Source: an uncultured Porphyromonadaceae bacterium (GTDB taxonomy: Bacteria > Bacteroidota > Bacteroidia > Bacteroidales > Muribaculaceae). From it: a stretch of DNA of 14,104 nt. The stretch lies in the NCBI GenBank assembly GCA_947175455.1, contig CAMWMW010000003.1, forward strand, positions 1 to 14,104. The letters are read 5' to 3'. Made by a program: the position numbers and the translations under genes. Numbering within the stretch: position 1 is the first letter of the stretch; the number at the start of each line of letters is the position of its first letter. The notes under the pieces were generated by a model. The model saw only the letters and a program-made list of their open reading frames with translations. It ran no database searches and was not told the origin of the DNA. Of this stretch, positions 4,720 to 10,045 are shown piece by piece.

Positions 4720-6007
4720 TGCCCTGACACTTCAGCAGCTGCAGCAGCTGATAGGAAACACTGTCAGAATGAACCCGCAACTGCAGGGTGTGTGGGTCAC
4801 CGCAGAACTCAGTGATGTGCGCATAGCCGGAGGGCATTGCTATATGGAACTCGTGGAAAAAGATGTTCTCGGCAATACCTGCGCAAAGATGCGCGCCATG
4901 ATCTGGAACAATACGCTCAATACGCTTCGCGGAAAGTTTTATGTCGCCACAGGCAAGGACATATGCGCCGGCATGAAGGTGATGGTGCGCGGCTCCGCCA
5001 ACCATCATAACCTTTACGGGTTGAGTTTCACAATAAGTGATATTGACCCCGCATATACGGTCGGAGACATGGAACGCATAAGGCGGGAGATTCTTGAAAG
5101 ACTGCATAGAGAGGGGCTTCTTGACCGTAACCGAAGTCTTCGGTTTCCGCCTGTTCCCCAGCGCATAGCCGTGATATCCGCGGAAGGAGCTGCCGGATAC
5201 GGCGAGTTTATGAACCAGCTTTTGAATAATCCCGATGGCTTCAAATTTTACACGCATCTTTTCCCGGCGGTGATGCAGGGGGAAAAGACATCGCAGAGTG
5301 TAAGAAACGCGCTTGGACAAATAAGAAAGAGTCTTGATTTATGGGATTGCGTGGTGATTATAAGGGGTGGCGGAGCGACTACCGATCTAAACGGATTCGA
5401 TGAATACGAGGTTGCAAAGGCGGTGGCGGTTTTTCCGCTGCCCGTAGCAGTGGGGATTGGTCATGAGAGAGACCGGACCGTTCTTGACGAGATAGCGTGT
5501 ATGCGGTGCAAGACCCCGACAGCCGTGGCGGCGATGCTCATTGATTCTTTGCGTCTGGCTTATGCCGCGACAGTGGAGAGGGTAAAGAAGATTGCCCGCT
5601 ACAGCGCGGATGCCATGAAAGGTGAGAAATATCGTATCGCCAATATTGAGACTGCTCTCCCTGCAAGAGTCCAGACACGGATAATGCGTTCTGAAAAACG
5701 CCTCGGAGAAATCGGACACTCAATTGAACGTGCGTTGTCCAGACGTTATTCTTCTGAAAGCGAGAGAATGAGAATGATCCGCTACCGCTTTGAGAAAGCG
5801 TGTCTGCAGGTTACGGAGAAACCTGCCACAAAACTGAAGAATCTTGAGAATATGGTTAGGGTTCTCAGTCCTCAGAATACCGTCAGCCGGGGATATTCGC
5901 TGACCTTGCTTAATGGGAAAGCTGTAAAAAGTGTCAGTGAGTTGCGGAAAGGCGACACAGTCACGACGTGTCTCTCCGACGGAACTGTGGAATCAACAGT
6001 AAAATGA
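4706..6007 (+). CDS. xseA: Exodeoxyribonuclease VII large subunit
   Basis: This is the catalytic subunit of exonuclease VII, which degrades single-stranded DNA from both ends into oligonucleotides during repair. The 433 residues show an N-terminal OB fold (about 8-115: LQGVWVTAELSDVRIAGGHCYMEL), the catalytic domain with RIAVISAEGAAGYGEF (153-168) and VVIIRGGGATTDLNGFDEYEVAKAV (216-240), and the signature GIGHERDRTVLDEIA (250-264), which carries the His and Asp of the active site. A long charged helical region (about 285-400) is the expected coiled coil that binds the small subunits. It is slightly shorter than the 456-residue E. coli enzyme. The ATG lies inside the end of the DUF4831 gene, overlapping by 14 bases, which suggests translational coupling. 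The small subunit follows after 66 bases. Confidence 0.94.
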   Translation: MAENNALTLQQLQQLIGNTVRMNPQLQGVWVTAELSDVRIAGGHCYMELVEKDVLGNTCAKMRAMIWNNTLNTLRGKFYVATGKDICAGMKVMVRGSANHHNLYGLSFTISDIDPAYTVGDMERIRREILERLHREGLLDRNRSLRFPPVPQRIAVISAEGAAGYGEFMNQLLNNPDGFKFYTHLFPAVMQGEKTSQSVRNALGQIRKSLDLWDCVVIIRGGGATTDLNGFDEYEVAKAVAVFPLPVAVGIGHERDRTVLDEIACMRCKTPTAVAAMLIDSLRLAYAATVERVKKIARYSADAMKGEKYRIANIETALPARVQTRIMRSEKRLGEIGHSIERALSRRYSSESERMRMIRYRFEKACLQVTEKPATKLKNLENMVRVLSPQNTVSRGYSLTLLNGKAVKSVSELRKGDTVTTCLSDGTVESTVK

Positions 6008-6340: not shown

Positions 6341-8812
6341 TCATTCGCGGAAATACACGCGTTTCACGCGAGGAGACACTGATGTCAGTATTTCATAAGG
6401 GATGGTGTCAAGAATGTCTGCAAGACGTTGCACAGGCATGTTTTGTCCGAAGATTTCAACGGAGTCGCCCACTTCGCAGTCAATCCCCGTTACATCTATC
6501 ATGCATGCGTCCATGCATATGTTCCCGATAGTAGGCGCCTCTTTGCCATTGACCATCACAGATATATTTCCTCTGCCGAAATGGCGGTTCATCCCGTCTG
6601 CGTATCCTATAGGCAGAGTGGCGATTCTTGAGCGTCGTTTGATTTTACCCCATCGTCCGTAGCCTACTGTTTCACCGGGGTCATATTCCCTGATGGCTAT
6701 GATGACAGTGCGAAGCGTCGAGACCACGGCAAGAGGTCTCTCAATTTCCGGCGGAAGAGTGTTGGCTCCATACAGACCGATACCAAGACGTGCCATGTCA
6801 TAATGATGTTCAGGATATCGCAGAATGCCTGCGGAGTTCAGCACATGTCTCAGAATCGGGTGCTTTGAGCGGTCAAGCATATATCCGGTATATCTCTTGA
6901 ATCTTTCCAGCTGCAGTTCCGTGAAGTCGTCCATGTCCGGGCAGTCAGCCGTAGCAAGGTGAGAGAATGTGGATTTGGCATACACCGCGTCGGACGAATT
7001 GATTATATCCATCAGGGCGGGAAGTTCCTCCTCTACGAATCCCATGCGGTGCATGCCGGTGTCGAGTTTGATATGTATAGGGTAGCCGGTGATGCCGTTT
7101 TTCTCAGCCTCCGCTATCACATCTTTCAGCATTCCGAAGGAATAGATTTCCGGTTCCAGCCTGTTTGCAAACATCGATTTGTAGTTCACCACCTTTGGAT
7201 TCATGACCATTATCGGCATGGTGATTCCCTGCCTTCGCAACTCAATGCCCTCGTCAAGAACCGCCACCGCAAGGTATGCGGCGCCACAGTCCTGAAGAGT
7301 CTTGGCTATTTCATAACTCCCGGCGCCGTATCCGGATGCCTTGACCATGCATACGATGCCGCATGAGGAAGGAAGTGAGTTGCGGAAGTAATTGTAGTTT
7401 GCCACGATGGAATCAAGGTTGACCTCAAGCACAGTCTCGTGTTTTCTGGTTTCCAGCATTTCCGCCACATCCTTGAAGCTGAATTCAGGGGACCCCTTGA
7501 GAAGTATTATCTCGTCCTGAAAATCGGATGTGGAGAGTTTTTTTAGCAGCGAAGCTGTCGATTCGAAAAAAAGTGCGTTTTCAGGGAACAGCTTACGGTG
7601 TTCGGAGAGAACCTTGCCTATTCCTATGAACCTGCTGATTCCTGCGGTTCTGGTTATTTCAGCGATTTCAGCATAAAGATTACCGGTTGGAGAGGTCTCA
7701 TGGTGAAGATCGCTGAGAATCAATGTGGAGGCCTGGCGCGGTATTCTTCGGCGGCGCATGAAGTCAAGAGCCGGGCGAAGAGATGAGAAATCGGATGTGT
7801 AGGAGTCAAGGATTATAGAGCATCCGTTCACACCTTCTGTGACGTTGAGGCGAGTTCCGATTTTGTGGAGGTGATGGAATCTTTCCGCTATAACATCGGC
7901 TTCTATACCTTGAGACAGCATGAAAGCAAGGGCATTGGCGGCATTCTCTATGTCCGATTCCGTATCAAGAGGCGCGGTGAATGAATTTGCGACCCCCTTC
8001 CATACATATGTTATTCTCATTTCGCCCTTGTCGGTGGTATCAGTGGAGATATATAGCCGTGCATCTTTATTCTTTCTTGACCATCCGAGAATATCGCGTC
8101 CGTCGGCGTATTTCATTACGGCATCGTTTATTTCCGGATAATCACTGCAATATATGATGTTTTTGGTCCGGGGGGTTGAAGCGAGCATCAGTTTTTGCGA
8201 GGCTTTTTCAATTCTTGAAGAGAACCCCTCCGCATGTGCGTCTCCGATATTTGTGACAATCACTGTGTCCGGGAGAATGCAGGCTGCGAGACGTTCCATC
8301 TCACCCTTTTTCGATATTCCCGCCTCAATGATAGCCAGAGATGTTTCCTTGTCAATTTCCCACATGGACAGCGGAACGCCTATCTGTGAGTTGAAACTTC
8401 TGGGACTGCGTGATATGTCTGACAACGGCTCCATCAGCTGATATATCCATTCTTTGAGAGTGGTTTTGCCTCGGGAGCCGGTAATGCCGACGATGTGTCC
8501 GTTGAAGCGTTTGTCTCTTGTCGCAATTTTCTGCAAGGCATCGACTGTATTCCCGACAACAAGCCAATTGATATCGTTTTTCTCACGGAGCGACGGGGGA
8601 ATCGCGTTGACAACGAAATTCCTCACGCCAAGCTCATAAAGCCCGGGGATATATCTGTGACCGTCATTGCCATCTGTGGGAATGGCGAAGAACAATGTAC
8701 CTGCGGCATTGGCAAGCGAGCGGGAGTCTGTGAGAAGAGAAGAAATCTGTCTGTCGTGTGGCAAGGCACGAATGCCGAGCCTGGCGGCAATTTCATTTAT
8801 CGATAATTGCAT
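6341..8812 (-). CDS. murF-alr: MurF - alanine racemase fusion protein
   Basis: An 823-residue cytoplasmic enzyme that joins two peptidoglycan precursor steps: making D-alanine from L-alanine, and adding D-Ala-D-Ala to UDP-MurNAc-tripeptide. The MurF part (about 1-455) has the ATP loop GITGSRGKTT (109-118), SFNSQIGVPLS (139-149), EAGISKKGEM (163-172) and TNIGDAHAEGF (187-197). The racemase part (about 458-823) has VKASGYGAG (490-498), where Lys491 should carry pyridoxal phosphate; ARLGIGLYG (674-682); VGYGRWGK (716-723) with the second catalytic base Tyr718; and TLPIGYADGM and GNICMDACMIDVT near the end. This fusion is a known Bacteroidota arrangement. In MurF the usual NDAYNANP-like stretch reads LDSYTSDFSS (335-344), a divergent form. 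It is the only gene in its leftward unit, with its own -7 box at 8857-8864. Confidence 0.95.
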   Translation of the reverse strand: MQLSINEIAARLGIRALPHDRQISSLLTDSRSLANAAGTLFFAIPTDGNDGHRYIPGLYELGVRNFVVNAIPPSLREKNDINWLVVGNTVDALQKIATRDKRFNGHIVGITGSRGKTTLKEWIYQLMEPLSDISRSPRSFNSQIGVPLSMWEIDKETSLAIIEAGISKKGEMERLAACILPDTVIVTNIGDAHAEGFSSRIEKASQKLMLASTPRTKNIIYCSDYPEINDAVMKYADGRDILGWSRKNKDARLYISTDTTDKGEMRITYVWKGVANSFTAPLDTESDIENAANALAFMLSQGIEADVIAERFHHLHKIGTRLNVTEGVNGCSIILDSYTSDFSSLRPALDFMRRRRIPRQASTLILSDLHHETSPTGNLYAEIAEITRTAGISRFIGIGKVLSEHRKLFPENALFFESTASLLKKLSTSDFQDEIILLKGSPEFSFKDVAEMLETRKHETVLEVNLDSIVANYNYFRNSLPSSCGIVCMVKASGYGAGSYEIAKTLQDCGAAYLAVAVLDEGIELRRQGITMPIMVMNPKVVNYKSMFANRLEPEIYSFGMLKDVIAEAEKNGITGYPIHIKLDTGMHRMGFVEEELPALMDIINSSDAVYAKSTFSHLATADCPDMDDFTELQLERFKRYTGYMLDRSKHPILRHVLNSAGILRYPEHHYDMARLGIGLYGANTLPPEIERPLAVVSTLRTVIIAIREYDPGETVGYGRWGKIKRRSRIATLPIGYADGMNRHFGRGNISVMVNGKEAPTIGNICMDACMIDVTGIDCEVGDSVEIFGQNMPVQRLADILDTIPYEILTSVSPRVKRVYFRE

Positions 8813-8913: not shown

Positions 8914-8949
8914 AAAAAACGGGGGTATATCACTACACTCCCGTTTTTT
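8914..8949 (-). terminator. Intrinsic terminator of the minus-strand small RNA
   Basis: AAAAAACGGG (8914-8923) and CCCGTTTTTT (8940-8949) form a 10-pair stem around a 16-base loop. On the minus strand the stem ends in six T, so it would end the RNA begun near 9092. The A/T flanks are symmetrical, so it could work in either direction, but no plus-strand gene reads into it. Confidence 0.85.
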
Positions 8950-9092
8950 CCAGACGACCTCGAAATCCTTCGAAGCCGAATGTAGGTCCTAATTCTAATT
9001 TAACTATTAATCCATAACTTTACTAATGCAACAATAAATTGTCAATGAAACGATATATGCGATTTGCTGTCATTTCTTAATCAAACTATTGG
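8914..9092 (-). ncRNA. Candidate structured small RNA (6S-like)
   Basis: A complete transcription unit with no reading frame: a consensus promoter (9097-9127), about 175-180 bases, and an intrinsic terminator. The ends pair: CAGAC (9096-9092) with GTCTG (8955-8951), although transcription may start a base or two into this stem. Inside, TAGTTT (9088-9083) pairs with AAATTA (9001-8996), AATCGCATA (9064-9056) pairs with TATGGATT (9016-9009) with one bulge, and ACAA-TTTA-TTGT (9042-9031) caps the arm. On the 3' side GACCT (8988-8984) pairs with AGGTC (8960-8956) around an inner TTCG-GCTT-CGAA hairpin. A rod closed by its ends, with large internal loops and a side hairpin in the 3' strand, is the layout of 6S RNA, and the size fits. 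No signal recognition particle or tmRNA motifs are present. An alternative is a leader or attenuator for murF-alr. Confidence 0.6.
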
Positions 9093-9096
9093 TCTG

Positions 9097-9127
9097 CAAA
9101 GTTACGAATTTATAAACTAAAAACAAA
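9097..9127 (-). promoter_or_regulatory. Strong promoter of the small RNA
   Basis: On the minus strand TTTG (9127-9124), a 19-base AT-rich spacer and TAACTTTG (9104-9097) match the Bacteroidota consensus exactly. There is no coding frame downstream for about 280 bases. Transcription should begin around 9093-9090. Confidence 0.8.
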
Positions 9128-9265: not shown

Positions 9266-10045
9266 TCATGACTTGTATTTATCCGACAGGTCCTTCATCC
9301 ATTCCGTAGCCGGTGTGACGGGTGCGGTCCGCTCGATACAAACCGGCACAACTGATATTATTCCGTGAGAAAGACACCATTCATCGGTTTTTTCATTTTC
9401 GGGTTCTTCGTTGATGTATTCTCCGGTAAGCCAGTAGAACTTATGTCCGTGCGGATCTGTATATTCGCGGTATTCGTCGTTCCATCTTCCCCGACAAGCG
9501 ACAGCGAGACGCATCTCTTCAGGTGTTCTGCCGATATTGGGTACGTTTACGTTGAGGCATATGTCTTCGGGCAGACCATGTTCGAGCACTTCTTTCACCA
9601 GCAGGTCTATTGCCTTGTAACAAGGTGTGAAATCTGCATCGTGAGAGTGGTCGGTCAGAGAGAAACCTATTGACGGGATGCCGAAGGCGCACCCCTCCAT
9701 CGCCGCTCCCATCGTTCCGGAATAGAGAACGTTTACCGCAGAGTTGGATCCGTGGTTGATACCGGCTACTACAAGATCCGCCTTTCTCGGCAATATGTGG
9801 TGCATGGCGAGTTTCACACAGTCAACTGGTGTGCCGCTTACCTTAAACATTTTCGCGCCATTGTAGTCGGGAAGTTCAGTGAGTTTCAACGCATCGTTTA
9901 CCGTTATAGCCATGGATTGTCCCGAACGGGGGGCATCGGGGCAGACCGCCACTACATCTCCGAATGGAATAAGGCGGTCTATGAGGCAGTGCACGCCCTT
10001 GGCACTGTAGCTGTCGTCGTTGCTTACTAATATCAGTGGTCTCAT
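9266..10045 (-). CDS. surE: 5'/3'-nucleotidase SurE
   Basis: A 259-residue cytoplasmic, metal-dependent phosphatase that removes phosphate from nucleoside monophosphates; in other bacteria it is tied to stationary-phase survival. The family signature is complete: VSNDD at 7-11 (metal ligands Asp10, Asp11), APRSGQS at 38-44 (Ser41), FKVSGTPVDCVK at 67-78, AGINHGSN at 94-101 (Asn97) and YSGTMGAAMEG at 108-118. Length is normal. It is the last gene of a leftward operon; its ATG overlaps the stop of the glycosyltransferase gene as ATGA, a sign of coupled translation. A 10-bp dyad and a probable terminator follow. Confidence 0.95.
   Translation of the reverse strand: MRPLILVSNDDSYSAKGVHCLIDRLIPFGDVVAVCPDAPRSGQSMAITVNDALKLTELPDYNGAKMFKVSGTPVDCVKLAMHHILPRKADLVVAGINHGSNSAVNVLYSGTMGAAMEGCAFGIPSIGFSLTDHSHDADFTPCYKAIDLLVKEVLEHGLPEDICLNVNVPNIGRTPEEMRLAVACRGRWNDEYREYTDPHGHKFYWLTGEYINEEPENEKTDEWCLSHGIISVVPVCIERTAPVTPATEWMKDLSDKYKS

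Follow-up and report, generated by a model that had tools for sequence, protein, structure and literature searches.

The locus examined here raises two questions: does the DNA between surE and a murF-alr fusion gene hold an RNA gene of its own and, if so, to which kind of RNA does it belong? The window, the whole stretch of 14,104 nucleotides that was analysed, comes from an uncultured member of the Muribaculaceae, abundant bacteria of the mouse gut for which no paper on small RNAs was found among the open-licence papers listed. The original prediction read the site as a self-contained small RNA gene, namely a 6S homologue, a member of the Bacteroidales-1 family or else a new RNA. Judged from the sequence of the window and of related genomes, the gene looks real and the 6S label wrong. 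A predicted promoter, a terminator, a covarying hairpin, a near-invariant core and independence from the downstream gene lend good support to a self-contained small RNA gene, and the last of the three options, a new RNA, is well supported too. The best reading is an undescribed, trans-acting small RNA which, as far as genomes were sampled, is restricted to one genus and whose family is absent from Rfam 15. For the Muribaculaceae, a small RNA gene with predicted limits from promoter to terminator is now in hand together with a covariance model.

Layout and covariation of the RNA gene

The RNA gene is encoded by the minus strand and lies, as originally described, between surE (9266-10045) and murF-alr (6341-8812); the identities of both neighbours are backed by Pfam. 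It forms one unit that consists of TTTG-N19-TAACTTTG (9127-9097), about 178 nt without a conserved reading frame, and a terminator (8949-8914). The exact Bacteroidota promoter that had been claimed is present in the sequence, with a predicted -33 element TTTG at 9124-9127, a spacer of 19 nt and a predicted -7 element TAACTTTG at 9097-9104; both elements also draw on the promoter counts in other copies given below, and transcription would start near 9091. Comparison of the copies shows that the following 5' leader (9055-9091) differs in length and sequence among species. Next comes the near-invariant, A/U-rich core of 69 nt (AUCGUUUCAUUGAC...AUUGUUGCAUUAGUAAAGUUAUGGAUUAAUAGUUAAAUUAGAAUUAGGAC; 8986-9054), which contains a few indels in the alignment, then a hairpin with strong compensatory changes (8951-8982) and finally the intrinsic terminator (8914-8949) with a covarying stem, the loop AGNGAU and a run of six T at 8919-8914, which corresponds to the T6 tail noted before.

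The alignment used for the covariation counts (A2) comprises 43 rows, that is, 41 distinct full-length copies plus two (L007 and L012) added by hand. Of 73 core occurrences 54 were distinct, and the 41 were kept after truncated copies and copies lacking a T run of four had been left out. A2 took the place of an earlier alignment (A1) in which strands were mixed, and a third one with divergent copies (A3) underlies no count. Over all 43 copies, 91.6% of the cells in the terminator stem and the 3' hairpin are paired as compared with 73.9% after shuffling (90.8% for the hairpin taken singly), and 20 of their 22 pairs, ten of eleven in each helix, have changed on both sides. Such changes occupy 189 cells versus a shuffled mean of 55.2, a value reached in none of 500 shuffles, and the covariation is also far above that of slid controls. 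Compensatory changes, for which the original prediction had proposed to look among relatives, are present in these two helices. The columns of a helix within the core were too invariant for a covariation test.

The terminator loop AGNGAU is invariant in all 43 rows. Within 384 kb of loci from the genus, 40 hairpins with such a loop lie near a core and three elsewhere, one of the latter being an additional terminator next to a copy of the RNA. In locus L073 the terminator hairpin recurs around position 5467 (G005:C260:5461-5505), just 3' of the RNA.

The RNA sequence of the window folds better than its shuffled versions (z -3.54, reached by none of 200), in agreement with the coherent fold that had been claimed. 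The 'paired ends' and the 'rod' of that claim were not confirmed, as the minimum-energy fold strings local hairpins together and lacks a stem joining the 5' and 3' ends, and the part 5' of the core varies between species in both sequence and length.

Spread and conservation within the genus

A BLAST search with 231 bases against 61 genomes gave matches in 26 of them at E 0.01, and these were read individually. The RNA was recognized at 20 loci in 19 of 37 same-genus genomes, one genome (G005) having two loci; the other matches examined were short promoter-like or scattered pieces. The core alone matched 22 of 41 genus genomes. With the covariance model, one match per genome was obtained in 27 of 40 same-genus genomes and in 27 of 297 genomes of the family, all in one of 30 genera; the 40 are those of the same genus among the genomes listed of the 297, while 250 without a match were assigned to other genera by list order. 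Four weaker model matches (G162, G308, G288 and G339) are without much of the core. In an order-wide sample only the genome of the window itself was hit (1 of 295 genomes, 184 genera). Hence, there was no match outside this genus among the sampled genomes, with absence meaning no match at the sensitivity of a covariance-model search run with stricter filters.

An exact 30-mer of the core was found in 53 contigs of the genome_contigs collection, which are labelled Muribaculaceae, Porphyromonadaceae, Bacteroides sp. or Bacteroidales and include Candidatus Amulumruptor caecigallinarius (Muribaculaceae). Among the carriers are two strains with isolate names, Isolate-036 and Isolate-037 (Harlan); over 8 kb the first of them shares 92.4% identity with the window. 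A search for a viral carrier with a single exact pattern gave no match in viral_contigs. The core is far more conserved than SurE, whose amino-acid identity is about 50-74% across the 13 further loci in which surE was located, although this conservation is partly a selection effect because the copies were sought by BLAST or by the exact core 30-mer.

Messenger, leader or 6S RNA

Three other explanations of the locus were considered. One takes the RNA for a small messenger that encodes a short peptide, for the window contains an ATG that opens a frame running into the core and ending in RFIDNLLLH. However, one-base indels among the copies put the core into three different frames with three different peptide ends, and an ATG upstream in that frame is present in only six of 46 distinct copies examined, the window's among them, and missing in the other 40. 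As had been stated for the window alone, no reading frame is kept; the frame shifts led us to discard the peptide, whose probability we regard as very small. Another explanation makes the RNA part of a neighbouring transcript: for murF-alr it would be a leader or attenuator acting in cis, for surE no more than the 3' UTR and terminator. The placement of the RNA between these genes and on their strand in the window is compatible with this model, and so is the finding that surE precedes the RNA on its strand, at a distance of 125-520 nt, in 32 of 53 genome_contigs loci. The promoter argues against it. The motif TAnnTTTG lies 20-260 nt 5' of the core 30-mer in 48 of 49 distinct copies, whereas dinucleotide shuffles average 8.6 and the reverse strand, which served as control, gives 12. 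Its distance from the 30-mer ranges from 62 to 227 nt in the 39 of 41 full-length copies that have the motif. The full pattern TTTG-N17..22-TAnnTTTG occurs in 24 of the 49 copies as against 0.42 on average in the shuffles and none on the reverse strand. With the terminator kept as well, promoter and terminator form a conserved pair. Their placement relative to surE was read in the window, where the promoter of the RNA is situated between surE and the core and where murF-alr has a TAnnTTTG of its own (TATTTTTG) 3' of the RNA terminator. The arrangement of the neighbours, moreover, is variable. Adjacent surE on the same strand is absent from 15 of the 47 loci in which at least 600 bases of upstream sequence are present. 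The constant co-directional place upstream of murF-alr that a cis-acting leader would call for was not found, murF-alr being co-directional and adjacent in only 13 of the 53 loci and convergent in four; in the remainder, several of which have short downstream sequence, it is not adjacent in the available DNA. Because murF-alr may be co-directional or convergent, synteny rules out that the RNA is its leader, and the promoter in the copies together with the variable arrangement of surE and murF-alr indicates a gene of its own. We therefore consider the leader or 3'-UTR model highly unlikely.

The third explanation, a 6S or second 6S-like RNA that would hold RNA polymerase as a mimic of the open promoter, has in its favour the length class of the RNA and the possession of its own promoter and terminator, features in which it resembles 6S (RF00013) and 6S-Flavo (RF01685). 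Yet none of the models for 6S, 6S-Flavo and Bacteroidales-1 (RF01693) matched: Rfam 15 gave no match to the window at gathering scores and only chance-level matches around the locus at E up to 10, so that the model check proposed at the outset came out negative for 6S and Bacteroidales-1 alike. Bacteroidales-1 RNA is similar in length and likewise belongs to the Bacteroidales, but it is encoded by a separate gene in the same genome (G000:C15:2011-2196), with 101 bits at a cut-off of 60, and lies above the cut-off in 35 of the 61 genomes. Since Rfam annotates it as '6S-Bacteroidales RNA suggested', the two names offered originally, 6S and Bacteroidales-1, may be one and the same. Neither RF00013 nor RF01685 exceeded its cut-off in any of the 61 genomes, a result to be read against named controls of which four of 14 passed with RF00013 and none of 14 with RF01685. 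A further difference is structural: 6S RNA is expected to have a closing stem and a large central bubble, whereas the RNA described here folds into local hairpins only and its 5' part is unconserved. Finally, it was found in one genus only. Both identities were dropped for lack of a model match and of a closing stem and in view of the Bacteroidales-1 gene elsewhere in the genome, and we rate a 6S function as very improbable indeed.

A 6S RNA of Bacteroides is reported from dRNA-seq in a study whose main text does not name Bacteroidales-1 (PMC7366714). At another locus (L092; G050:C197:5361-5556), weak matches to Bacteroidales-1 (28.9 bits) and 6S-Flavo (33.3 bits) overlap, both below the cut-off, and neither RF01693 nor RF01685 was recovered when this locus was rescanned at E 0.001. 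The overlap hints at a relationship between the two families, in line with the 6S suggestion of Rfam for Bacteroidales-1.

Core, candidate targets and possible partners

As a full explanation we tentatively propose a regulatory small RNA of about 178 nt that is transcribed on its own, is usually present once per genome and pairs through its core with the start regions of mRNAs. Such an RNA would act in trans, the core would be its business end, as in GibS and FopS of Bacteroides, and pairing would block translation, while the hairpin and the terminator with its conserved loop might stabilize the RNA or hold a protein. For GibS and FopS of Bacteroides thetaiotaomicron, a long conserved stretch upstream of a Rho-independent terminator has been described that serves as a seed at translation starts; this stretch is 5' in the RNA and pairs with mRNA starts, the RNAs bind the RRM protein RbpB, and FopS occurs in 12-15 copies per genome (Ruttiger et al. 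2025, PMC11697453). Compared with this description, the new RNA shares the Bacteroidota promoter and the long conserved stretch before a Rho-independent terminator, although its core, with a mean unpaired probability of 0.435 versus 0.423, is predicted to be no more accessible than shuffled RNA. It differs from what is described for GibS and FopS in the single match per genome in 27 genomes, as opposed to the multiple copies of FopS, in the extra covarying hairpin and the conserved terminator loop, in the failure to find an RRM protein in its genus and in showing no pairing enrichment at susC starts.

With respect to the protein, a search for RRM_1 (PF00076) at E 0.001 was negative in all 41 genus genomes, 17 of which are at least 90% complete, while the Bacteroides ihuae control was positive. 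RNA-binding proteins of the RbpB type may thus have been lost from the genus, and because none was found, any protein partner of the RNA is unlikely to be an RRM protein of this kind; an RbpB-like partner was accordingly dropped as a candidate. A paper on an RRM protein of Porphyromonas yielded no motif (PMC12119571). The finding raises the question of how genes are regulated at the post-transcriptional level in a Bacteroidales genus where RRM proteins of the Bacteroides type were not found.

In the genome of the window, secondary matches of the core were obtained at E 1.8e-5, 0.0027 and 0.0099, the best values for two shuffled cores being 0.12 and 1.46. Two of the three are antisense over the start regions of glycan-enzyme genes. 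Codons 4-14 of a GH36 melibiase gene match the core in antisense orientation (93% over 30 nt, E 1.8e-5; L028:1501-1530, C11:4045-4074) with a predicted duplex of -42.5 kcal/mol, and in a sulfatase gene the core is antisense over 18 of 18 nt from -24 to -7 (L123:701-718, C287:3142-3159), at a site close to a contig end. We regard the sulfatase match as a lead and the GH36 match as a lead for a target that is itself unproven. None of 21 other GH36 loci had the site (duplexes of -13.0 to -27.8); the survey took in 22 of 23 listed places, all except L294, and the start looks misplaced in L284 and L288. The nearest GH36 site, 83% identical, occurs in a genome in which the RNA was not found (G026), which makes it a weak test.

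Antisense pairing to mRNA starts in general was also considered, as the matches in the window's genome and in G012 looked convincing, but it proved not to be enriched over shuffles. Among the first 40 secondary core matches in the 41 genus genomes nine were antisense at start regions (six in the top 20 and three in the next 20) as compared with five of 20 and two of 20 for two shuffled cores. Outside the window's own genome only one secondary match reached E <=0.01 (G031), no more than for each shuffled core. The susC mRNAs found no support as targets, either: the duplex energies of 42 start regions did not improve on those obtained with shuffled cores, of which 101 of 200 reached the observed mean. 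The set represents only some of the numerous susC-like matches listed, its starts are the most upstream ATGs, and four loci (L252, L265, L268 and L270) were dropped from it because the contig end was too near.

The missing enrichment speaks for a different mode of action, in which the RNA would work mainly by binding protein, as a decoy, a scaffold or an RNP, rather than by antisense pairing, with the core and its UUAGRAUUAGGAC end and the terminator loop as putative protein sites. The conservation of the core far beyond that of surE (with copies partly found through the core) and a terminator loop that keeps its pattern throughout the 43 rows and is almost confined to this RNA family point in the same direction. 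Against it, there is no candidate protein from a search that covered RRM_1 (none in 41 genomes), and the GGA of the hairpin loop reads GUGA or otherwise in many copies. Mainly protein-binding action appears possible, if somewhat unlikely, to us; antisense regulation is the reading that we put first, and a protein-binding role ranks only slightly below it.

Going beyond antisense regulation of single mRNAs, one may speculate that a separate global switch at the post-transcriptional level is built around this RNA in a genus that appears to lack RRM RNA-binding proteins, with species-specific glycan-enzyme mRNAs such as those of GH36 and sulfatase recruited as antisense targets. The core of about 69 nt would then be kept near letter-perfect because many partners or an RNA-binding protein dock there, and leader and neighbours could change while the core stays. 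We hold this extension to be doubtful. Elsewhere in the window's own genome, an intergenic region close to a contig end contains a fragment of the core in sense orientation (22 of 24 nt; L122:701-724; C72:7309-7332), perhaps a decayed copy.
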